In this document: positions 33,674-64,000 of the stretch, piece by piece
How positions within the stretch are numbered: the first letter of the stretch is position 1
Layout of the letters: every line of letters begins with the position of its first letter
DNA from: Parietichytrium sp. I65-24A
Lineage: Eukaryota; Sar; Bigyra; Thraustochytrida; Thraustochytriidae
Assembly: GCA_012862575.1 (NCBI GenBank)
Contig: BLSF01000008.1
Location: 620,001 to 684,000 of the forward strand
Direction of reading: 5' to 3'
DNA: 64,000 nucleotides
Position numbers and translations under genes: made by a program
Notes under the pieces: model-generated
What the model saw: the letters and a program-made list of their open reading frames with translations, nothing else
Databases searched by the model: none
What the model was told of the DNA's origin: nothing

Positions 33674-34387
33674 TACGCTTGCCGCTCTAATGTCTCAAAA
33701 CTCGTCTCCTGGAACTCCTGGAATGTCTTGCCTCGCTGGTTCATAGGCTCTTGGGTTGGCCCAATCAGTAGATCCGGACATTAAGAAAATGCAACATTAT
33801 TATCGTAGTTGTAGCAACTCTGAAAGCGAAATCGTTTCTATCTGAACTGTTCCGTCGAATGTCTCGCCCTCCTCAAACCTTCCACTTACAATTGCATCTT
33901 CTTGCTGAACTGTTAGTTGATTGAGAAAAAACGTACTTGCAGCTCTGAAAAAAACGAAAGACAAAACAATTACACCAAAGTAAATTGTGGTGAGATTTTG
34001 TAATTAAACAACAAGTGAAGCCAAAAAGTGCAGCGTGAACAAACCCTCTCGGAAATATCGGAAGGTTTAGTGCTCAAACAAACGATCAAGAAGGGACAGG
34101 ATTGCTTTGGTTCCGGAGATGCAACTTTTAGAACGCCAAGACTTTCGATGTATATCGATGTATATGTTGGCGTACTTTTGGAAATTGCTCTGGTTGCTAA
34201 CTGCAAGAAATAGGTTTCAGAAAAGTGCGAAGATGAGGAATAGGTTTTGTTACAATAAATTTTATATATACTCTACAAAGGCCGGAAGCACGGGGCGCGC
34301 AATACTAAGACATCAGGCGTCATTAGCTGCAGAAATCGCAGCACAGAAGGAAAAAGACAGATACTACCAAAGCGAGGGTGTCGGACT
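33674..34387. other. Convergent intergenic region between LIS1 and PP2C genes
   Basis: No gene. It is AT-rich and carries one copy of a dispersed ~50-bp repeat (34014-34065). Confidence 0.4.
34014..34065 (-). repeat. Dispersed ~50-bp repeat, copy 1
   Basis: Reads, on the minus strand, as a diverged form of the motif GGTTTGTTTACGCTGTCACT ... CGTGGCTTCACT seen also at 55158-55207, 59871-59921 and 61893-61946. Not matched to a known family. Confidence 0.45.
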
Positions 34388-50424: not shown

Positions 50425-53400
50425 CGAGCGACCTGCACAAACTAGTGACGGTTTCGCGCCAACGTACAAGGATGGATACCTTTTGACCGGTGGACCCGCA
50501 CTGTCGCACGAAAGTTGAAACTTCTGAACGGCTCTCGAAGTAAAGGAAGTAAAGGAAGTAAGAAGCGTCCGACTCCGAGAAGCTGAGCCTCTGAGCTCGA
50601 AACGGCTAACCGATCTCCGTCTCTCTGTCTCTGTCTTTGTCTCTTTCGTCTTGTCTTGTCTTGTCTCTCTCACGTTGCCTCTCTCACGGTCAGTGCCGAG
50701 AGTGCTGACAGAGAGTACCTGTGGTGCTCTTTCGCCTCAGACGATCTCCGCGAGTCAGCGGCAACAACGGCAATAGGAACAGCTTCCTCACTCACCCACC
50801 CACTCACTGCTGGAGAATGAATGAGTACGACTCATAGGAAATACACAGATCGTCTCGTCCAGTCACTTTAGTCACTTTCTTCTTTTCTCACTTTCTCTTT
50901 CTCTCTCTGACATTCCCCTCATTCATTTTGTCTCTTCCTCCTTCTCTCCATCTTGCCATCATTGCCATCCCTCTCTCACTGGTCTCTCCTTTCCACTATG
51001 TGGTGTGTTGAGGCCGTTTCAACAAATTAGTAAGATTAATTAGAGATCTGGCTACAAAACGATGTGATGGATAGGTGACTCGCAGATAGAAGGGCTGAAA
51101 TAGGGATCATTAGGAATTAGTATGGATGGGTGCAACAGCATGGACCTCTAAAACCATCTTTTACTGTGGCGCATAAAACGGTTCCTAAACCAAACTGTAG
51201 CCGCTCCGTAAACACACAACCATGGTACGACGTAGTCGCATAGGAGCCGTATAGAAGGATCTTCCCGCTGTTCAAAAACCCGCATACTGGACCGTAGAGT
51301 AAAGGCGAAAGCTTCATCCAAGCAGTGGTTGCCGAGAGCCAGAGTAGAGGCCTCGATCGGAGAGGACATCAGTGAGTGAGAGTGTGTATGGTCTTGGTTT
51401 GTCTGTCTTCCACAGTACTGGTACCACGGTACCGAGGGAGTGCTAGCAAGGCTTCTTGCCCTGCAAAACGCCATCCCAAGACTTCCGAGGGGTGGTAGTA
51501 CTAGGTATGGTGTTGATAACAATTCAAGATGTCGCAGGGGAAGCGTGGTTTGCGACGGGAATTCTTGGTTGTTATCGTTGACATTTCGAAACAGGACGAA
51601 ATTATAGCGCACTGCCGTATGTTGAGAGCAAAGCGATACAAAATTTCAGTGGTATGTTGCGGCCTGAATTTCTGTTGTTAATTAAACCTGGGCGCAGGAG
51701 GAGATCATCGGTCGCTGACAGAACTGACACACATGACGAGCCAGGACCACTGACGCTACAGACACCAGTTGAGAGAGTGTGCGTGCTGAAGAGTGTGTGG
51801 CTTTTGCTTCTCCCGCTCCTGTCGCTTTTCTTGTTTGGGTCGAGTAGTGAGTGATGATGAGTGGTGAGTGAAAATGTAAATTTCTTCGCGCTGGCACACA
51901 CGTGGTGTGTCGTAGTTAGCTCTGGGCTGTGGAGAGGATGAGTTTGACGACTCAGACACATCGACACATCGTAGAAGGAGGAATCCAATTTTCGTCGGGT
52001 CACGCTGCTCGAGACTATTGGAGACTTTTGCAAGGTTCCAAAAAAGGTGCACTTGACAGACACACGTGTTTTCTGCAACGAATTACTTAGCGAAATGAAC
52101 TCCGATATTATTCCTATAATGGGAACTTCTTAATTTGGCGAGTAATAATGGTAGTACAGTATTGACCCTCGGTCATAGCAGTGATGTGCATTTTTAAGCC
52201 ATAGCTACGACCCTCTTATTCTACGATTCTCTGACCCTATGGCTCGCAGGACACTCCCCACTCCACTACTGGTAACATGTTAGATCTCATTGGTAGCAAA
52301 AGATGAGAGAAAGTAGAGTACGGTACTAGTACTCTGCTCAAGTCAGTATTACGTACCACCAGGACTAACACTTGCAAATAGTTGGACAGCCAAGGCCTGT
52401 GAATACTTGCTAGGCCTTAGCATGCGAAGAAACTCATTGTTTCGTGAAGGAGTTGCTAGAGTGTCATAGTATACACCCAAACAGAAAAAAGTAACCGCTT
52501 TTGTGGTTTCCAGACTCACCGGGAGGGCCAAGCCGAAAAGTGGTCACGCGAGGAGAAAGAGGGCAGTTGGGTGGCAAAAAGGCGTTCGAAACAGCGCGTG
52601 GAGAAAAAATCGCTCCGAACGCGCTTCCAATTCCACCCGTTTTTTGGTTTCAATCACTTTTCAACAGTAAAGTTGACAATTGTACAAGTTCGCGGCCAAT
52701 CTGAAACCGCGCACCGGTGTGCTATTCCGAATGTCTATCACTTCTACTGCTATACCCAATTTTGAAAAGCACGTGGGCCAGCACCACAGAGCCCTACCAT
52801 CTGCTATGCTATGAATGTTGGTACCAGGTAGGATACAGGTAGCACAGGCTATTGCACTCGCTCTCAACCAGTGCGGTAACAGTGTTTAAAAAAATCATAT
52901 GCGCATTAGGCGGGCCCGTGACAGCGCGTGATGGCAGCGTTCTAATAGAGTTAACTCTAGTGAACCTACCCGGCGTTTAGGTGTGCGATTCCTGTTCGTT
53001 AGGTGAAATTCTGAAAACTTTTTCGGATTGCATTCTATTCTACACAAATTAAAAAACTTTTGTGCTTTCAGAGCTTGCCTTTCGAAAGTTGGAATAGACA
53101 AGAAAGAACTGGTCGTTCTGAATTCAATCAGGACTCGTGAGACGAGACAACTGAATCGAAGAAACGCCTGCCAACTGCGGCTCTGAAAAAAGAAGAGCTT
53201 AAGCGGGAAAAAGCGGAAAGAAGCTCTTCCACCACTACTATCACCACCGTGCATTACACATTCCCCTGACTCTCAGGCATTCCTACTTTCCGGGGTAGCA
53301 CACGTGTATGAGAGGTTTGAAAGAGCAAGAAAGCGATGGAGGCGAAACGCGGCAGGCAGAGAAGGAGAGTTGTGCACCCGGTGCTAGTGCGTTACTATTT

Positions 53401-54460
53401 GCTATTATGCAGTGCACTCCCAGGCTGTCTCTCGCCTTTGGAATAATTTGAAGTTGAGAGTGAAGGTGAATGAGTCGTAGCTCAGAGCGAATGACGATGC
53501 CCCCTCTCCACCACTTGACGCCAGAGTTTAATTAGTCCTATCAGCCAAGTAGCTGCTCCCTCGCCGGGAGGTGACGGAGTCGCGCTAAGAATTGTAATTG
53601 ACAAAACTGGGGATTCTGGGGAGTGACAGCGTAAGTGAATTGTGTGGCGTGGGTGTTGTGAGGGGGACGACGGAATTGCGCAGAAGGACGGATGAGTGTC
53701 AATGCAAATTTCGCGAGACGTGTGCAAATTAGCGGTGCACATACTCGCAGCGCTAGCATCCAATGGACAAGCACAAGTGCTAGCACCACGCTTCGAACAA
53801 ATTTTAAGTTAAGTTACTGTCGAATCAACAGAATTCGTTGAGCTTTCAGCTCCTCCTCTCAGAATCCAGAATTATTCAGAATCAGAAATTCAGAACTTTC
53901 GCAACAGACAGATTTAGGCACTAATAGTATCTATCGAGATGCTGGAACTTTCGGCTCCACTTTGCACCGATCAAAGTTTCAGCTAAGAGTTCAGTAAACG
54001 GAGGCAATGGCGCGAGAGAGGGAGGGATTCAGCAGCGGGGTGGCCGGGCCTTTAACCCCTCTATTCTCTTCTCATTTCTCTCCTCTCTCATTATCTACTG
54101 CAGCTCTATATATTCATTGGGTTCCTTTCTTTTTTCTCTCATTCTGCTCTTTCTCCGTTTCTCTGAGACAAAATAATCGAAACAGCAGACACAACTTTCT
54201 TCCGTACTACCTCACACCTTGCTACCAGCGCGCGTTCTCTCTTCTTTCCCTACTTCCTCACGTTCCTACTCTACGCTCTCGTTCCTGCGCCGCAGGTAGT
54301 AGTTTACTATGGGTCGTGCGCGAGTGGTAGGCGGTCTGCGCAACCTTAGCGATCATGAGGAGGGAGTGGTAGATGGTGCTTACTCCGGGCGGTAGGACGC
54401 CGTTGCGCTCCTCAGAGAGGTGCGGAGGTCTGGCTGGACAAGCGAAGGAGCAGCAGTCGG

Positions 54461-54473
54461 GCAGACCCCAAAC
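54461..54473 (+). promoter_or_regulatory. Conserved leader motif GCAGACCCCAAAC, upstream of GPI-type gene A
   Basis: The identical 13-mer sits 62 bp before the ATG of gene A and 60 bp before the ATG of gene B (60799-60811), while much of the sequence between motif and ATG has diverged. It could be a transcription start or leader element. Confidence 0.4.
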
Positions 54474-54534
54474 GAACAAGCACAACAAAGCAGACCAAGT
54501 AAACAGCCGCAAAACACACAACCACAAGTCTAAA

Positions 54535-54819
54535 ATGAAGTTCGCAAACGCACTCCTTGCTGTCGCCGTCGGCGTTGTCAGCTTCTCCTCTGCTTCCGCT
54601 CAGAACAGCACCAACAACACCAACACCACCATGGCACCAACCATGAGCAACAGCACCAACGTCACCGCTTCCCCAACCGCTGCACAGACCATGCAACCAA
54701 CCGCCAGCAACAGCACCAACACCACCACCTCTGCACCAACTTCTGCGCCAAGTGATGCATCCAGCACCGCAGTTCTCATGACTGCTTCTGCTGCTGCCCT
54801 TCTTGCACGCTACATCTAA
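54535..54819 (+). CDS. Small secreted Ser/Thr/Asn-rich GPI-type surface protein, copy A
   Basis: 94 residues starting MKFANALLAVAVGVVSFSSA, a clear signal peptide cleaved near ASAQ. The middle is made of N-glycosylation sequons and Thr/Ser/Pro (NSTNNTNTTMAPTMSNSTN), so the mature chain would be heavily glycosylated. The C-terminus is SDASSTAVLMTASAAALLAR, a small-residue site followed by a hydrophobic tail, typical of GPI attachment. No enzyme domain. A paralogue of 101 residues lies 6.3 kb downstream (60871-61176) and is almost identical at both ends. The in-frame open region upstream of the ATG is rejected as coding because the signal peptide must be N-terminal. Probably a cell-wall or surface-coat mucin-like protein; the role is unknown. 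Confidence 0.78.
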   Translation: MKFANALLAVAVGVVSFSSASAQNSTNNTNTTMAPTMSNSTNVTASPTAAQTMQPTASNSTNTTTSAPTSAPSDASSTAVLMTASAAALLARYI

Positions 54820-55369
54820 AGCGTTCAAGTATTTCGTGTTCTCATTGCGCTGTCTTGAACTGCTCTGTAGTTATCATCTTTGAATCAGAAGAAGCTCGGC
54901 AACAGCATTATCTCTCCTAAATGGTAAATCATGTTCGTTGTTGACTAGTTTTTCTCCCCGTAATTTTTCTAACCAGTCATGCCCGCCGATGATGGCGAGG
55001 AATTGTTCTTTACGGCTGCTGCACTCTTCTCCAAACTTCCCGGCGCGCACCCAAGCTAAGCGGTGTTGTCACACGAACCACACCTGAATAAGAGCTCTCA
55101 TGTGACGGAGGCAGTATTGGCCTTTGGGTTCCTGGGGCCCGGCCCCAAGAGAAAAGTCAGTGAAGCCACGAAGTGACAGCGTAAACAAACCCAATCGGAA
55201 GGTGGGGTGGAGAAAAGTAAGTGGAGCCAGGGTGTCACGAGTGCAGCGCAAATAAACCCCCCTCCGAGGTGATTCGTCAAAAGTCTGTTCAATCATCAGC
55301 GATCCAGGAAATGAATGCATTGGGAGCCACTTTGCTGCGCATGGATTGGGCCAAGTTTATCGCTTTCTA
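54820..55369. other. Intergenic with two adjacent dispersed repeat copies
   Basis: 3' region of copy A, then the dispersed ~50-bp repeat at 55158-55207 and a more diverged copy at about 55216-55265. No gene. Confidence 0.4.
55158..55207 (-). repeat. Dispersed ~50-bp repeat, copies 2 and (diverged) 3
   Basis: The minus strand reads GGTTTGTTTACGCTGTCACT then TCGTGGCTTCACTG. A degraded tandem copy follows at about 55216-55265 (same strand). Related to 59871-59921 and 61893-61946. Confidence 0.6.
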
Positions 55370-55668
55370 GGATCTTCCGAGCTTCTTGGCAACCCCGTCT
55401 TTGACGCTGGGTTCAGTTTTGAGAGGCCTGTTCTATGAGCCAGCGCAAGGGTTTGTGCGCTCTCCAGAGGAGTTTGGTGCCGGCCTTGCGCGCGGGACAA
55501 GATCATTTGTGCGGCATACTGCTAGACTGTATTTCCAAGCTAACTTTTTCGGTTGGAGCTGGGTTTGCCATCTTGTCCATGGACGATCGATACCTCACGG
55601 ACCGTCGCGCGATGATGGTCGATTCCGCACCGCAGCACGTCAGAGAAGTGGTTTTCCTTGGTGACTGA
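55370..55668 (+). pseudogene. VPS13 C-terminal fragment (relic)
   Basis: Three reading frames carry consecutive pieces of the VPS13 C-terminal region: ELLGNPV near 55379, then GLFYEPAQGFVRSPEEFGAG and LARGTRSFVRHT (55430-55530), then ISKLTFSVGAGFAILSMDD and RYLTDRR (55535-55605). In VPS13 proteins this order (LGNP, YEP..G.V.SP..F..G.ARGT, SK.T.S...G.A.LS.D..Y) is contiguous. The frame changes twice in under 200 bp with no splice signals, so this is a broken fragment. No other VPS13 part is visible nearby. An intact parent gene is expected elsewhere in the genome. Identification is by eye but the motif run is distinctive. Confidence 0.7.
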
Positions 55669-56548
55669 AAGGTAGGGTGGAGAGAGGCGTGATCGCACAA
55701 CATTCGCATTAAGCAAGCCTTCATGAATGACGGAGTTGGATTATCAGTTGGATATGCACATTTCCTCGCTTCCAACGGAGCTCTTTTACTAAAAGCCCAA
55801 AAGCCCCTTTCCCCAGTAATTGTAGGTCTCCATCCGAATCTTTCGAAGGGGCGGAGCCAAGGATCGACCAAGAAGCAAGGCATTTCGAGACGACAGTTCC
55901 ATCTTTTCCCTCGCACAGCCGTTCCGCTCCTGTCACTTCCCCGTCGAGCACGAAGCTGCTGCATCGACCGGACCTGTTCATGTGGACTGCAACTAAAGCT
56001 AATTCAAGGGATTTCGCACGACTTCTGCTCTATCCGACTGAAGCATCTTTCACTGGGAGCGGATCTTGGTCCTTGAAATGCATGAGCGTCAATGCACCTC
56101 CGTAGTGTACAACTGGTTGTGTGCACATTCCGGTTTAGAAAAGGACATGTTGTTCGTTAAGGTTCGTCTGAACTTTAAAACGAGCAAGTTTTTGTTCAGG
56201 GCATCCCCGAGCTTAAAAAATATGTCAGCTCGAGCCGAAGATTTTCTTGACCGACAATTTTTTCTGGCAAGTTGTCCACCCACACTGCACGTATCTTTGC
56301 ATTTTGGTAGATCTCTTGCTGGTTCCCCCAGAATTGCCCAAGGGCTTGTTCGAATTCATCGCTTCTCACGCGGAACTCTTGAAAACGAAGAATTATAACT
56401 TCATTGGTTTGTTCTATGCCACAAGCAAGCTCCGGACGGCTGGAACCACTTGAGCTGCCTTAGATTGAGGTGAGCATCCACTATTCAACTTTCCAGAGAG
56501 CGTCAATAGACAAGAACTTTGAAGTTGCTGTTGCCAGTCGCTGTTTAA
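55669..56548. other. Interval between relics, no supported gene
   Basis: Open frames exist on both strands (for example 55723-56076 and 56066-56398, plus strand) but none has a recognisable domain, and neighbouring relics suggest decayed sequence. Confidence 0.35.
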
Positions 56549-57818
56549 TCAAGCCCTTTCGATTTCGAAACCGAAAAATGAGGTTGCATCATCTGATTGT
56601 TGACTGTCGAACAATTTACACTGGCAACCGGCGAGGTATCCAAGGAATACCTCGGGTGTTTTGGAAGAGGCAACTTCCACCGGAACGGCACCTTCGAGAT
56701 GCGATATTTCTTCGCTCACTCTCGATGAATCTTCGATTCCCATATCCTTCATGGACTCGCTCCTACTTGGCCCTCGTTCAAAAACGCCAAGTACACTCTC
56801 ATAACCTCCATCGAATTCTTGCGAGATGTACTCTTGTGCATTTCCCACCTACGTTCGTGCAGCGGTAAGCATCCTGTTGTCGGTCCTACCATTGTAATGG
56901 TCAGATTGGCTTTCCTTCCTGCCTAAAGAAGCAAGTAAAAAATCAAGCAAGTTGGGATTTTGGTCCAAAACACCGAAGTCTGCAAGGTGGATTGGAACTC
57001 TGGCGAAGTCTAGAGCTGTCTGTATGCCATCCACTTCTACAAAACCCAGACGCCGCCGAAGGGGATTGTCTACTGCCGTGACTTTCATAAAGCTTAAAAG
57101 AGCCTCCGTCTTTAAGGGGCCAACTGTCCGGATCTCAGAGACTGCAATTTTTGCAATCTCCAAACATCGCTCGTATCTCTTATACCACTCTGCCTGAGAT
57201 TTCTTTGCTTCAGTTTTTGCTTTTGCTTGCCTGGCATAGATGAAACTTTTTCCTGGATCGTTCAATTCTTCTCGAGCGGCTCTACTTTTGCGTGCCTCGT
57301 GAGTGTTCTGAGCGAGGTATTGAATCTCACTCTGCCCGGAATCCCTGACCCACATGCGATTCAAGATTTGCTGAGTTATACCTGGTGCGCAAAATTTGTT
57401 CAAGTGGAACATGAAGTCTTGAGGGCGAGACGTGTAAGCAATGTTTCGGAGAAGAGTGATCTGGAAAGTGTTACTGACCATCACAGGCACAGTCTTCATG
57501 ATGTCACTTGACGTGTTTAGGACAGATCGCTTGCAGCTGCAGACCACTCGCTTCGTTACCAAGTAAAAGTAATTCGCAAGGTCAAGGACAACCCTGTATT
57601 CCATCTTTCCAGGTTTGAAGGAGATGGCAGCGGAGCAATGCAGGCATTAAGGGTGATCCGATAACTTTGGAAGGAAACTGTTTCAGAGGTTCCCACACAA
57701 AGACTGGCCGAAAGGCGTAGCTCTCTGGAGCAGCTTGCGCCTCGCGGCTCATATCTGCTGGATAAAACCATTGAGATTCACGTCCGCCGAAACTAACTAA
57801 ACCCATTGGCTTTCTCAA
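56549..57818 (-). pseudogene. Degraded gene resembling DUF6729-type proteins
   Basis: On the minus strand, FVWEPLKQFPSKVIGSPLMP followed, in another frame, by YRVVLDLANYFYLVTKRVVC and SCKRSVLNTSSDIMKTVP resembles the Cys-rich N-terminal part of DUF6729 proteins, in which a VP-LW start, a VLD strand, a Y-L-T-x-Y/R strand and a C-x-C pair occur in this order. Downstream, 57590-56849 continues as an open, Lys/Glu-rich segment, and a further open stretch (56848-56549) lies in a different frame without an identifiable domain. The gene is spread over more than one frame and is probably a relic; an intron-containing gene is the alternative. DUF6729 proteins are uncharacterised, often multicopy, and possibly linked to mobile DNA. 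It overlaps the extreme 5' end of the Fanzor frame on the other strand. Confidence 0.4.
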
Positions 57819-59045
57819 ACGAGTCTCTAATTAGTGGTCATACAATTGATTCGTGGCTTCACACTTGTCGTTTTGTTTACAACAAATTGATGGAATGGTA
57901 CCCAAATGTCAAGCAGGTCGTGAAGGTATCTGAAATGCGTGACTATCTCGCCGACACACATCGCGTCAAGTACCCGTTCATCAAAGAAATACCACAAGAC
58001 CTCCTCGAATCTGTGTCAGTACGATCCTTCGATAAAGCACGAAAGGCTGAGAGATCTAAGAAAAAATGCAATCAGGCCAAGCGAGCATACTTCAAACTCA
58101 AGTCAAGGAAAGACGAGCAACAGTCGTTCTCAATTCGCTCGAGAGACTGGACTAATAATAGGGGATTCTTTGCACATTTTCGTCATGTCCGGCCAGCCAA
58201 GAATGAAGTGATCCCTGAAAAAGTGCAGCACGAGGGAAAGTTATCCGAACTCGTCTCGGAGAATATTTACATGTGCTTTACAAAAACGATCGAGCGTAGT
58301 AAGTGGACACGAAAGGAGTGCGGAAAAATGAGCGCCAAAACTGACGAGGTTCGATTGCGCGATAACCAAGCGCCTGATGAATCTTTTCATTCGGTTTTCT
58401 CACTCGACCCGGGTGTACGTACGATGGCGGCTGGTTTTTCAGTTGGCGATGGAATGTGCGTGGAATTTGGCAAGAACGACAGTGCTCGAATCTTTCGTCT
58501 CTGTAAACATATGGACAAGCTCCAACAGCTCAAGGATACGAACGAGCTTTACAAGGCGGCTGGCTTCAAGATGCGAGATAGACGCTGTCTCCGTCTTTGT
58601 ATCAAACGTCGTACGATGGCTTTCCATCGATCCATTCGCAGGATTCTAAACCTCGTTGACGAGCTCCACAAGAAATTGGCTTGTGCGCAATACCTATAGA
58701 GTCATTCTGCTCCACAAATTCGAAACTTCCGGAATAATCGCGCGTAAATTGCGTCGCAAAATTGGTTCCAAAACTGCACGCATGATGTGCTCTTGGGTTC
58801 ATTATCGTTTTCGACAAAGACTCGTTTCACGCGCCACTTTGAACGACTGGACGGCCGTCATCGAGTGTGACGAAATGTACACTTCAAATACGTGCGGAAT
58901 GTGTGGCGCACTTGACCATCATCTAGGATCCTCGAAGACTTTCAATTGCAACAGGTGCCACAACATCAGCGATCGCGACGCGAACGGAGCCAGGAACACT
59001 CTTTTGAGATACCTTACATTGAACGAACACTTTCTCAACATTTGA
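57806..59045 (+). mobile_element. Fanzor2/TnpB-type (IS607-like OrfB) RNA-guided nuclease gene, split by a frameshift
   Basis: Two overlapping frames (57806-58699 and 58656-59045) make one TnpB-type protein of about 410 residues. N-terminal part: WLHTCRFVYNKLMEW and RKDEQQSFSIRSRDW match the TnpB helical/WED region. RuvC-I is SLDPGVRTMAAG (Asp at 58406), followed by EFGKNDSARIFRLCKHMDKL, typical of IS607-group TnpB and Fanzor2. The bridge region ends NLVDELHKKLA. In the second frame, RuvC-II Glu lies in VILLHKFETS (58722), then KLRRKIGSKTARMM, the zinc finger CGMC ... CNRC, and RuvC-III SDRDANGARN. All catalytic residues remain. The frames differ by +1 around 58685; an in-frame stop sits just upstream (57794) and no ATG precedes the first conserved motif, so the 5' end is missing, spliced or eroded. 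No IS607 serine recombinase is visible. Probably an inactive or recently broken copy. Confidence 0.88.
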
Positions 59046-59052
59046 AACAAGA

Positions 59053-59074
59053 GGGCGTGCATTTGCACAAACCC
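59053..59074 (+). ncRNA. Stem-loop after the Fanzor stop, candidate guide-RNA scaffold
   Basis: Eight bases after the stop codon, GGGCGTGCATTTGCACAAACCC can fold as GTGCA/TGCAC with a TT loop and an outer GGG/CCC stem. TnpB and Fanzor guide RNAs are made from the 3' end of the nuclease gene and its flank. The link is positional inference only. Confidence 0.3.
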
Positions 59075-59870
59075 TTTCTCGTGAAAAAGAATTGCGGTCG
59101 TGAGAGTCCATTTCTGAGTTCAGTCTTCATGATTGTTGCAAGGAATTGGAATGTAACGATGCCACTGATGCCACAAAAGCCTCCAGAGAGCTTAATATTT
59201 CCTATTATTCTTAGGTAGTACGGTAAAATTAGTAAGAGCATGAGTATTAGTAGCGGCACTAAGTTATTCTATCCATAGAATGTGTACACGTACAGTGGCA
59301 TGACTTGGTCACTGGGATGATGAGCCAGCCGCCACACATTTGTCTGACACAAGAAGAGTCCGCTGTTGATTCGTAAACACGGCTGAATCGCTTAGGTCGT
59401 CATTTGAGCGCCGCCATCCACTCACCGCTGCTCAAGCTGTGTTAAAAAAGTTAGAGAGTGGATCGCGTGCCGGTCAAGTTTTTCCAGCGCCGAGATCCAG
59501 AATCAATCTTTTCACCTCACTAAAAGAAATACGGATACCCACTGTCAATACTACAATGTTTTTTGTGGGCGTTTGCGCGGAGTTAGTACATTGCGTACAC
59601 ACCACCTTGTCTGTCAGTGACCGCGTCACATGGCAAACGAACCTCAATCACTCGACGCCATCACGATGATCGACTGGGATACCAACGCACTCGACTCTTT
59701 CGCGCTCTCCGCTCCGCCACTCCAGACGACCTTCCAAAAATACTTTGTGCTGCTGTGCAACCTGCGCCACTTATACATTCACGCGCCATAAGGCGGCCAC
59801 CCCAAACCGTAAACGCAGTGTTAGCACGAACGACTAAGAAAGTACAGTTTTGCATTCCCTCACCATCCTT

Positions 59871-59921
59871 CACCCCACGTTCCGATAGGGTTTGTTTGCG
59901 TTGTCACTTCGTGGCTTCACT
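59871..59921 (+). repeat. Dispersed ~50-bp repeat, copy 4
   Basis: CACCCCACGTTCCGATAGGG then TTTGTTTGCGTTGTCACTTC and GTGGCTTCACT; same unit as 61893-61946 and, on the opposite strand, 55158-55207. Confidence 0.65.
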
Positions 59922-60798
59922 TGGCATCCCCTGGAGTTTTTGCGAATGCGAAACGCGCTTTCAAGTGTGCCACACTCAGTACTAAGTACACCGTGAAAAG
60001 AAGTAGCACGCGGAGAGAGTGAGGGTTGAATGAGAATGAGAGTACCACAGTGAGAGCCAGGCGCAACCATTTCTTGCGGTCAGCGACGCATCGGCGAGTA
60101 TCGAAGCTTCTGTTAAGTTTTCGCAGCCTCTTTTTTTTGGAGAGGCTCGCGAGTTGCTTCGAGCGCAAATGTGACAGTTCCCAGTCCTAGCTCTCCCTTA
60201 CTTTGATCCTTGCAGGTCTTGCAGGGTAAGCAGAGGTGTGTGCCGCGCTCTCCCTACCATGTCTACCATGATGGAGAGCACTGCCGCCTTAGCTGGAGTC
60301 CATGGCAAGGCTAGCAATTCAGATAGATATACGAAAACAGCCAGCATCCCCTTCTGTAGTATTCTGAACCTCCTGAGCTGGAAATTTGTGTCGCTGGCGC
60401 AGGAGTCGGAGTGATTGTTTTGAGTTCATGAGTGGATCGATCTCAAGATGAATGAACATGTAAGCGTAGGTAGGTAAATAGAATGGATCGACATTCTGCG
60501 TCACCCACCCATCGTCAGTGACGAATCGGTTTGGAAGGAGGTGTGTTTGTCAATTAAGCTTACCATCCCAAAAATCTACAAAGACCACCACGTGAAGACC
60601 ACCTTAACTTTCTACGCGACTCTTGTTATTTTAATTTTAAAATTGCAATTTTGAAATCTGACTTTTTAGGGAGCCGAAATGAGCCCACTCGAGGAGATAA
60701 CCTTATCGTTTTGGCTCGCGAGTGTTAGTGCCAGACCATTTTCTACCACAGGATTATGCTGAGAATGAAGGTTTTAACTCAGCGCGTTCAGTGCAACA

Positions 60799-60811
60799 GC
60801 AGACCCCAAAC
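60799..60811 (+). promoter_or_regulatory. Conserved leader motif GCAGACCCCAAAC, upstream of GPI-type gene B
   Basis: Identical to 54461-54473 and at nearly the same distance (60 versus 62 bp) from the start codon. Confidence 0.4.
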
Positions 60812-60870
60812 ACTCCATCAAGACAAGAACGCAGAACAACTGATCATCCACAAAACAACAAGTCAATAAA

Positions 60871-61176
60871 ATGAAGTTCACAAACGCACTCCTTGCTGTC
60901 GCTGTCGGCGTTGTCAGCTTCTCCTCTGCTTCCGCTCAGAACAGCACCAACAACACCAACACCACCATGGCACCAACCATGAACAACACCACCATGGCAC
61001 CAACCATGAACAACACCACCAACGTCACCGTTTCACCAACCGCTGCACAGACCATGCAACCAACCGCCAGCAACAGCACCACCACCTCTGCACCAACTTC
61101 TGCGCCAAGTGATGCATCTAGCACTGCAGTTATTCTGACCGCTTCTGCTGCTGCCCTTCTTGCACGCTACATGTAA
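60871..61176 (+). CDS. Small secreted Ser/Thr/Asn-rich GPI-type surface protein, copy B
   Basis: 101 residues, same architecture as the 94-residue copy A at 54535: signal peptide MKFTNALLAVAVGVVSFSSA (one substitution from copy A), a sequon-rich middle, and the GPI-type end SDASSTAVILTASAAALLAR. The length difference comes mainly from one extra NTTMAPTMN unit, a 24-bp tandem duplication in the middle (around 60958-61020). High DNA identity over the coding region and divergence of the 3' flank indicate a recent gene duplication or gene conversion. Confidence 0.8.
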   Translation: MKFTNALLAVAVGVVSFSSASAQNSTNNTNTTMAPTMNNTTMAPTMNNTTNVTVSPTAAQTMQPTASNSTTTSAPTSAPSDASSTAVILTASAAALLARYM

Positions 61177-61800
61177 ATCAATATCTTTCGCCTCCGTTTG
61201 AAAAGCTGTTCTTTCTCTGCTCTTTCACGAGATGTCGCTAAATAAAGCTACCTTTCACGAATTATGAATTAACTGTAAGAGCGCGCACTTTGCCCACTTA
61301 TACATAAATGTTTTCGTCTGCTATTGTCTTTCATTGTTCAAGAAATTGGAGGCGGACCCAACCTTTCAGCTCGTTCGTTTAGCTCTACTTTCTGGCCTGG
61401 AAATAATCATGAAAAGTACGGACGCCAGAAAGGACCTCCGTCGTGAGCCCCTTGAGCGTTGAGGAGCACAAAACTCTGCAGAGTCCAGGGTCTGGAACAC
61501 TTGTCTACATTACGCTGCAACAACGAGGAGGCGCAGCTCTCCTGCACGAAGAGCGCCGGAACCGGGTGCGATTGCTTTGGCAATGTACTAACAGTCACCA
61601 CACATACGCATTCGTACGCGAGAAAGAAGACAAACTTGGGAGGGTCTCGGTGCGGAACCACAACCCCTTGGACAATTCTAGGGTTTGTGGAGACCAGGCA
61701 GACGTGCAATGCGGACCTCTTCAAATTTATCGCCGAGACGGGTTCATCGGTTTGACGCTGTAATCGAGACGCTGCATGGAATCGGAGACTCCACAGACAC

Positions 61801-61834
61801 CCACGGACACCACGGACACCACGGACACCACGGA
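61801..61834. repeat. Nonamer tandem repeat (CCACGGACA)n
   Basis: Nearly four perfect 9-bp units just upstream of the dispersed repeat copy. Confidence 0.8.
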
Positions 61835-61892
61835 CTCGACTCTGGCGTGGATGATCGATTCGGTTCCGCAGTCGTCGGGATCGCCAAGATGA

Positions 61893-61946
61893 CACCCCAC
61901 CTTCCTTCCGATAGGATTTGTTTACGCTGCACTTCGTGGCTTCACT
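61893..61946 (+). repeat. Dispersed ~50-bp repeat, copy 5
   Basis: ACCCCACCTTCCTTCCGATA then GGATTTGTTTACGCTGCACT and TCGTGGCTTCACT; closely related to copies 2 and 4. Confidence 0.65.
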
Positions 61947-61967
61947 GCCAAGATGACTCTGCTCTGA

Positions 61968-62083
61968 GACAATGACAATGACAATGACAATGACAATGAC
62001 AATGACAATGACAATGACAATGACAATGACAATGACAATGACAATGACAATGACAATGACAATGACAATGACAATGACAATGA
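61968..62083. repeat. Hexamer satellite (GACAAT)~19
   Basis: 116 bp of uninterrupted GACAAT units, about 19 copies with no visible mismatch, directly after the dispersed repeat. Confidence 0.95.
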
Positions 62084-64000
62084 TTGAAAGTTACACTAGT
62101 CACGCCATGTCACGCCTGCCGTGAAGTTGCTTTCACAGTCAGAGGATGTCAGGGTGACCTTTATTCTTTTCTCCCAGTCGTGTCTGCAGACTAACCAACT
62201 TAGGCCGCCATTGAAAGAGAGCACCGGGAAACAGCAACGAGCAAAGCCCACGGTCAGCATTGTCAGCATTCGCCATCACTCACGATTCCCCTATATTCCC
62301 CTATCCTTTCCCCACTTACGCTCTCGATTGCTCGCAAAAAGTCACGGAGACTGTTTGTAAACTTGGTACCGCGGTGCATTCCCGCGTTGGTGCGCTTATT
62401 CGGTGAGGTGTGCAGCCTCAGGCTGCCAGTTTACCGATGGATTCCCTGCACTGTATCGCTTGCAGAAACGCTTTCAGAAAACCTTCACAGCACTTTTTTT
62501 TTCAACGACTTGCACACTCGCACGCCTCTTCTACATTTTTATATTTAATAAAATTGAGTGCATGAAGGCATGTAGGCATGTAGGGTTGTTCAGCTCATTG
62601 TTCAACTGAACTGACAGTGAATATTCGTCGCGGACAAGGTCTTGTTCGGAGACTTCTCACGACCGACAACCTACTTAACGAGGCGTTTTCATCTAGGAGC
62701 TCTCTAATTTTAACTATACTAGCTCTAGTGGTTAGAGCGAGAGTGTGTACGGGGGGAGAGTGTGCGCCAGCTTCACTACACCACGTGAGGTGGATCCGAG
62801 GGACGAGTCCAAGTATTCAAAGGAACAGCGTGTGTGGTGTGCTTATGCTTCTCTCACGACTCTCACGATGGCATCCGCTGCCACCTCCTGTGGCGGTGCC
62901 TTGTCCTTGATCAAGAGTTGTTCAAAGTGTTTTCTCCTGTAAACCCACTCGCTTTTCACGTATTTGCGACCTTGTTCACAAGACCCAGGTTTGGTAAGAA
63001 GGAAACGGGTGTTTCGAGTAGTAAAAAAAAATGGGTCAAATCATGTCAAATCTGCGCACACCCAACGCTCTCCATTTTGCCAAACAACAATGAATTTTCC
63101 GCTTAACAAATGCTATACTTACTAACTAAAGCATTGGTTAGCTAAAATAGAAAATTAAAATCGAGCACTGCGAAACTGCGAAAAGGAAAGGATTTGGAAA
63201 ATTGCACATTCATCCGAGTCCTTGATTGATTGATTGATTGAGTAGGTTGAATTATGTTGAGTTATGTTTGAGTGATTGATCTCATTGATCCAACGAATAA
63301 ATTCTTAGATAGGGTTTAAGATAGGACCCAAGTCCTGTAAATCAGCACTTAATCGAAGCTGTGAACATGCTCTTAGACCGAATTGTATGTTGCGATTTAG
63401 AAGTTGTTGTGTATTTTTTCCAGAATTCAGTTGAGAGTGAAAGATCCCAAAACTCCCAGACCCGTACTAGACCTCATTAAACTCGTTCTTCGGCTTTGGC
63501 TGGACTCCGAACACTCGGATCAATTCTCCATCATCCTACACTCTTGATTTTGTCCCTGATCGAGGAGTGAAAGGTCCATTTGCTTTCTTTTCTTCCTTCT
63601 CAATTAAAATTGAAATCAATCAATCAAATCGAATGCAAATATGACCCAAATCAAAGAAAACTGAATGAGCTTTGATCGCATGTGATCGCTTTGATTCGCA
63701 TTTGATCGCTTGATTCTTTTGCCCTCTTCCACTGTTGCCTGTTACCTGTGGCCTGTAGCCCTCCCAACCTCTCCAAGACGACATTGTCATTGACATTGAC
63801 ATTGACTCGCCCGACTCACCGAGGGGCTCGGAGTTGGTGCGAGTCTGAGAGGAAGACAGTCGCCGTGCGTGTGACCCGCGAAAGGAGAGTTTAACTAGTC
63901 TTCAACGGTGCGTACCGTAGTACTACCTAGTCGAGTCCGAGAGTCTCTAGTGGCCAGTTCAGAGGAACGGTTAGTGCTCAGCATCGGGCTGGAATCTCCG

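Follow-up and report, generated by a model that had tools for sequence, protein, structure and literature searches.

The window analyzed here is a 64,000-nucleotide (nt) stretch of the thraustochytrid Parietichytrium sp. I65-24A (contig BLSF01000008.1, positions 620,001 to 684,000), with coordinates counted from its first letter. On its forward strand lies a stretch that is very probably the remnant of a Fanzor2-type gene, that is, a 5'-truncated and frame-broken pseudogene and a eukaryotic descendant of an IS607-family TnpB. The first-pass annotation had proposed a Fanzor2 nuclease gene with a frameshift at 57806-59045. The gene is present, and its start differs: the frame opens at 57797, 57806 is merely a TTG, and the first ATG lies at 57890. 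The gene pieces and catalytic residues are as follows.

57797-58699, + strand: N-terminal piece of the Fanzor2-type gene (rest of WED, REC and RuvC-I with DPG; 300 codons, stop at 58697), from profile A3
58650-59045, + strand: C-terminal piece (RuvC-II/III and C4 zinc ribbon; frame shifted by one base, stop at 59043), from Pfam, profile A3 and mimivirus L79
58684-58695, + strand: site of the net frame change, 10 nt separating the aligned codons on either side, from profile matches and alignments
58406-58408, + strand: RuvC-I catalytic Asp (DPGVRT), from motif and conserved-column comparison
58872-58874, + strand: alternative Glu of RuvC-II (EMYTSNTCGMC), six residues ahead of the ribbon's first Cys
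58977-58979, + strand: RuvC-III catalytic Asp (DRDANGARN)

Profile A3, built from 24 IS607-type TnpB cores, was run on all 1551 stop-to-stop frames of at least 25 codons in the window, and only two frames matched it (the third best had an expect value (E) of 1.5). The frame at 57797-58696 matched profile positions 23-252 (E 2e-26), and the frame at 58650-59042 matched positions 251-365 (E 1e-37). Residues 1-195 of the N-terminal frame alone gave E 4.5e-11 (Z set to 3000). The TnpB phrases listed in the first-pass annotation are all present on the + strand in the right order, with CRFVYNK, DPGVRT, EFGKND...RLCKHMDKL and ELHKKLA in the N-terminal frame and FETS, CGMC, CNRC and DRDANGARN in the C-terminal frame. 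Moreover, Pfam detected PF07282 (Cas12f1-like TNB domain, 7.3e-13) in the C-terminal frame, and its search of the N-terminal frame 57797-58699 returned nothing relevant. Since the two frames fit one profile contiguously, they represent one protein split across two frames, with the break at 58684-58695, and the abutting of the matches at 252/251 indicates a single frame change without a large insertion. The frameshift expected near 58685 is thus located. Of the ways past it that had been suggested, splicing is excluded, and an intron at this site was rejected, because just 10 nt lie between the aligned codons; nothing was observed in favor of read-through by frameshifting. Mis-sequencing at the frame change is unlikely.

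The RuvC triad is intact, as had been claimed, with Asp at 58406, Glu at 58872 and Asp at 58977; the first Asp and the Glu are 466 nt apart, counted across the frame change. PMC10711439 defines Fanzors and their closest bacterial relatives by two features, the DPG of RuvC-I and a Glu placed six residues ahead of the zinc finger. This fingerprint, tested as a Glu six residues before the first CxxC, x(12,18) CxxC x(4,8) D, at 120-160 residues after DPG, is complete in the window, where DPGVRT is followed by EMYTSNTCGMC-x14-CNRC and then D. Furthermore, conservation was assessed at 45 columns at least 90% conserved in 43 relatives, which were scored leave-one-out. The window keeps 32 of the 45 columns and mimivirus L79 keeps 29; with five N-terminal columns excluded, the counts are 31/40 and 24/40.

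To obtain a fold, a read-through construct across the frame change (P0003), aligned with 41 relatives, was modeled with AlphaFold2, giving a mean predicted local distance difference test score (pLDDT) of 74.3 and a predicted template modeling score (pTM) of 0.60. The best fold match in the PDB is the mimivirus Fanzor2 9b0l (E 9.1e-12), followed by ISFba1 TnpB, another TnpB (8h1j) and Cas12f entries, with Fanzor1 (SpuFz) at 1.7e-5. The ten best fold matches in BFVD come from Pandoravirus, Edafosvirus, Yasminevirus, mimivirus, Heterosigma akashiwo virus, Hokovirus, Cafeteria roenbergensis virus, Klosneuvirus (two) and one nameless entry; most of the named ones we take to be proteins of large DNA viruses of eukaryotes. 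The template modeling (TM) scores of the fold matches are modest (0.4-0.5), and their root-mean-square deviations are large owing to the long uncertain parts of the model. In a PDB sequence search with the C-terminal piece, mimivirus L79 (9b0l) was also best (1.3e-10), and L79 tops the profile search as well (2.5e-53). The earlier assignment to the TnpB/Fanzor superfamily is thus supported.

Among records of the phage collection, the best for both pieces by tblastn is Microcoleus phage My-WqHQDG (WOL31425.1), at 40.5% identity to the N-terminal piece (residues 187-296) and 49.5% to the C-terminal piece (residues 14-120); an alignment of the N-terminal piece with this phage TnpB gives 41% over 111 amino acids. 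The C-terminal piece is about 46-50% identical to cyanobacterial and cyanophage TnpBs, and whole-protein identity to relatives is 22-33%. Viral contig scans with the two window pieces yielded nothing usable, and a bacterial genome scan gave 70 loci, many of them cyanobacterial. Arthrospira sp. PCC 9108 holds 13 of these 70 loci of related TnpB (L027, L028, L030, L033, L035, L037, L039-L042, L045, L050 and L053), and at 11 of the 13 the extracted frames are shorter than 330 amino acids. A TnpA frame overlaps tnpB at the Microcoleus phage locus and at the uncultured viral locus L003, where it matches Pfam Resolvase (2.1e-20) and MerR (2.2e-9), the make-up of an IS607 TnpA. Five viral contigs (L092-L096) carry near-identical tnpB frames of 576 codons with a basic N-terminus, and in L093 a TnpA frame overlaps tnpB.

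For the 58-row tree set, 25 short or broken-frame loci were dropped from 86 to give 61 full-length cores, and 5 near-duplicate or partial rows were then removed. This tree places the window as the sister of 24 rows from cyanobacteria, phages and viral contigs (81/84, not starred). The 47-row tree combines 27 earlier cores with 18 of 45 new viral loci, six of them without trimming at the WED strand; here the window pairs with L090 (96/64), and both stand beside 15 pro-Fanzor-type rows (99/91, starred). The sole certain Fanzor2 in the trees is L79. When topologies were constrained, neither the window with L79 nor the window with L79 and L090 was rejected by the approximately unbiased (AU) test (p-AU 0.21 and 0.12). 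The exact place of the window is unsure because of long branches. These results agree with the proposed IS607 ancestry, the window standing beside cyanobacterial IS607 TnpBs. The Fanzor2 label is supported by fingerprint, fold and trees, with a clade including L79 neither found nor rejected. The L090 locus itself belongs to an uncultured viral record of 174,811 base pairs (bp) that encodes an intact Fanzor2-like protein. A giant-virus identity was considered for this record from a TFIIB-like look by eye and was not borne out by Pfam; capsid, VLTF3, and DNA and RNA polymerase families gave no match in it, two of the searches being silent in control genomes as well.

The 5' part of the gene is damaged. 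Profile positions 1-22, which include invariant S, K, I, Y and P, are absent beside the core, as is the N-terminal extension, and an in-frame TAA occupies 57794-57796. One short segment precedes this stop.

57761-57796, + strand: possible remnant of the first WED strand (DKTIEIH, in DKTIEIHVRRN), then the in-frame TAA at 57794, by eye

Within this segment, KTIEIH resembles KTIKIRLFP (in NKTIKIRLFP) of L090 by eye and may be the lost first WED strand; no in-frame ATG precedes it. An intron of 42 nt at 57782-57823 was rejected, given its atypical donor and a start codon that would still be lacking. Because the start codon and first WED strand of a complete protein were not found, the stretch is classed as a relic or pseudogene and not as a working Fanzor2 system. 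The earlier view of the gene as broken by a frameshift was therefore correct and incomplete; the 5' damage, which it had overlooked, places the gene more than one frameshift from intact.

The frames themselves are still open. Neither contains a stop (296 + 116 codons), as against 3 to 21 stops in the other frames of the same DNA. A stop would result from about 4.3-4.8% of single changes in the open stretches, and 5% neutral substitutions (about 62 changes) would leave them stop-free about one time in twenty. Together, the stop-free frames and the retention of most conserved residues suggest that the gene was probably under selection until fairly recently. The loss of constraint probably dates back less than about 5% neutral change, a rough figure from a stretch chosen for its openness.

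A TnpA match is found at 124 of 133 relatives' loci, L090 being among the nine without. In the window, no significant TnpA was detected by tblastn (E 0.048 with two queries; 0.022 at best with 65 queries) or with a TnpA profile of 65 sequences (E 0.74). The first-pass annotation had placed no tnpA within reach; this holds for an intact gene, and a candidate relic had been missed.

61643-61745, - strand: candidate IS607 tnpA/tnpB overlap relic of about 100 nt, from tnpA and tnpB-extension profiles in register

In IS607 elements, tnpA and the tnpB extension are the same DNA read in neighboring frames. At the candidate relic, tnpA profile positions 98-129 match 61739-61644 (-) at 4.9 bits, and positions 67-88 of the tnpB N-terminal extension profile match 61708-61643 (-) at 11.2 bits (E 0.019), the best hit of that profile in the window. 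The extension profile was built from 22 relatives; two of three control frames scored with it, and L093, for which a wrong start had been given, did not. The register offsets are 31 and 1 nt, identical to those at all 11 reference loci examined. Among 312 order-3 Markov simulations of the window, no in-register pair exceeded 11.3 bits in sum, versus 16.1 bits in the real window (0/312). Taken singly, the 4.9-bit TnpA score was reached in 234 of the simulations and the 11.2-bit extension score in 13. The top hit of a DNA profile of 65 tnpA genes also lies here (E 0.21). Three weak top hits coincide at 61598-61745 (-). Only 10 of the 64 TnpA queries having a hit place their best one at the relic. 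Pfam found no Resolvase there. The relic, which lies 2.6 kb from the core on the opposite strand, was found after the fact among three weak hit lists; it is possibly what remains of the 5' end of the element, displaced by a rearrangement. A perfect GACAAT tandem array of 19 copies stands near it, at 61968-62083. The proposal that the long N-terminal part of phage tnpB is a mere tnpA overlap was rejected, as L090 has a matching extension and no TnpA.

The surroundings of the gene were searched for element ends and a guide RNA. No inverted repeats with site duplications were found around the gene in 53000-64000. The inverted pair 55159-55221 / 59859-59921 was rejected as Fanzor transposon ends, being part of a dispersed repeat and having outer flanks that do not match.

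34014-34054, 55158-55212, 59868-59921 and 61893-61947, both orientations: dispersed repeat of about 53 bp, four copies in the window

Direct repeats of 9 and 10 bp, GAGAAAAGT and TCATCTTGGC (by eye), border two of these copies, those at 55158 and 61947, each copy having its own; this arrangement resembles that of a very short mobile element. A right end of about TAAATG-ATCAG is common to most of 19 aligned cyanobacterial and viral loci; in the window, this motif occurs at chance level (10 matches versus 7.3 expected). The 3' flank at 58990-59250 folds no better than shuffles (z 0.06), and Rfam has no match in the window.

The window also encodes XRN (XRN_N), PPP5, ubiquitin-conjugating (UQ_con), PP2C and WD-repeat proteins, which mark it as eukaryotic nuclear DNA, in keeping with the eukaryotic setting first proposed. 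The immediate neighbor is a DUF6729 gene.

56849-57818, - strand: DUF6729 neighbor (DUF6729 match at 56849-57646; possible N-terminal part in another frame at 57582-57818)

Its match to PF20499 (1.8e-6) scores 28.2 bits against a cut-off of 27. This gene and the Fanzor remnant are arranged head to head, and the DNA farther upstream of the core is antisense to the former. The DUF6729 gene is apparently broken in its N-terminal part, as judged by eye because the short N-terminal piece alone gave no DUF6729 match. DUF6729 searches of viral contigs, plasmids and phages gave nothing usable, and the same was true of Pfam on nine other frames from 55072 to 59982. Farther out, at 54531-54820 and 60867-61177, two copies (92-97% identical in blocks) of a small gene with a Ser/Thr/Asn-rich, apparently secreted product flank the Fanzor remnant on both sides.

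Several observations weigh against the reading as a recently decayed Fanzor2-type remnant. Each of the 43 relatives keeps 38 to 45 of 45-47 conserved columns, more than the window does; the window sequence is more diverged than all of them, but not more than the eukaryotic-virus Fanzor2 L79. Its end branch is 2.2 in the trees, and L79 is not grouped with it in the best trees. Given this branch and the lower column count, an older decay is possible. In addition, the read-through protein is a construct, and the locus was read from a single copy, in this window only. Finally, the model forms a low-confidence strand at residues 5-12, the site of the first WED strand that is missing from the sequence, so that the 5' loss may be smaller than apparent. 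A refinement, which is possible but falls well short of probable, takes the locus as a scrambled IS607-type Fanzor2 element: tnpB would have been cut in its 5' part by an inversion, one end of which lay near 57.79 kb and the other at some point below 61.64 kb. Turning this segment back would bring the truncated side of the core up against the candidate relic, with both pieces on a single strand and ordered as in IS607. One such event would explain why the core is truncated, why a 5' scrap lies on the opposite strand and why the DUF6729 gene abuts the core. The exact register, matched by none of the simulated windows, and the coincident tnpA DNA profile hit argue for it. Each relic match is nevertheless weak alone (tblastn E 0.022-0.048, 4.9 bits, 11.2 bits and DNA profile E 0.21), the match covers about 100 nt, lacks a Pfam Resolvase and is post hoc, about 60 codons from relic to core are unaccounted for, and the breakpoints were not seen.

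The other explanations give up either the decay or the IS607 origin. It is unlikely that the organism itself has an unbroken gene, and that assembly errors or an unannotated upstream exon account for the frame change and the lack of a 5' end. In favor of this, the triad, the C4 ribbon and the majority of conserved columns survive, upstream KTIEIH is similar to the first WED strand of L090, and a phase-0 GT...AG stretch of 42 nt with a CTAAC (57782-57823, by eye) would join it to the rest. However, KTIEIH has no in-frame ATG before it, the donor is GTCCGC as against GTAAGT in two introns of about 70-95 nt in a kinase gene of the window (by eye), and the match to the missing extension sits elsewhere on the other strand. 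Eleven open frames of at least 450 amino acids (7,711 codons) also suggest few assembly insertions or deletions, although these frames were picked for openness. Programmed +1 frameshifting, or two chains, could in turn yield a working split RNA-guided host nuclease without N-terminal extension or transposase, both halves being open and conserved and the break falling outside the triad, after a long helix and before a strand. With the 5' end missing, and no slippery signal recognized by eye (no dedicated search was made), we regard this as highly improbable; the 61 relative cores used are all single-frame, but they were chosen for openness. It is quite unlikely that a single eukaryotic transposon of a non-IS607 kind carries both the Fanzor and the antisense DUF6729 gene as cargo, which would make this a captured "Fanzor2*" of the kind that PMC10711439 reports in an alga and molluscs. 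The window has no intact TnpA, and both genes look damaged and are adjacent and divergent; yet inverted repeats with site duplications are lacking around the two genes, the sole good repeat pair is the dispersed repeat, and the candidate tnpA relic points to IS607. DUF6729 is not mentioned in the literature searched for that term. Recent bacterial IS607 DNA or contamination, in place of a long-resident eukaryotic gene, is close to refuted and the most improbable of all: the highest identities of the C-terminal piece are indeed to cyanobacterial and cyanophage TnpBs, but the flanks are eukaryotic, whole-protein identity is 22-33%, the end branch is long, and the TnpA present at nearly all relatives' loci is not intact here.

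We therefore return to a Fanzor2-type remnant. By analogy with the family (PMC10432273, PMC10711439), the intact ancestral nuclease would have carried a guide RNA derived from the right end of the element. It would then have recognized a short target motif, opened the matching DNA and cut it via the RuvC D-E-D residues, and such cutting, judging from the family, may help these transposons persist. With the 5' part lost, the frame changed and no intact TnpA, the present copy most likely encodes no working nuclease. What the window offers is a Fanzor2-type gene caught while decaying, with a legible core, a lost 5' end and a transposase that is gone or reduced to a scrap. The finding would be weightier if intact copies with ends and a guide RNA exist elsewhere in the genome.

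This kind of nuclease is already known in eukaryotes, and the window adds a further eukaryotic genome. In stramenopiles, one Fanzor2 family each is recorded for three Phytophthora species in PMC3627910, and Fanzor2 in other eukaryotes is described in PMC10432273. The window also fits the picture, drawn in PMC10711439, of IS607 nucleases passing from bacteria to eukaryotes. The pro-Fanzors, that is, the cyanobacterial and cyanophage IS607 TnpBs of that source (WOL31425.1, L036, L031 and L024 among our loci), have the same fingerprint and domain order as the window and are 48-50% identical to its C-terminal piece; their loci carry an overlapping tnpA, whereas the window has no intact TnpA. The L090 protein (IMGVR_UViG_3300013105_000001), the nearest neighbor in the 47-row tree, is 31% identical to the window over 347 positions and, like it, is without a TnpA match; unlike the window, it is encoded by an intact open reading frame of 483 amino acids with an N-terminal extension. 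With the mimivirus L79 Fanzor2 (9b0l), the window shares the DPG and the alternative Glu six residues before the C4 ribbon, at 17% identity in the structural alignment. In contrast to Fanzor2, the window copy has lost its 5' part, carries a frame change and has no intact TnpA.

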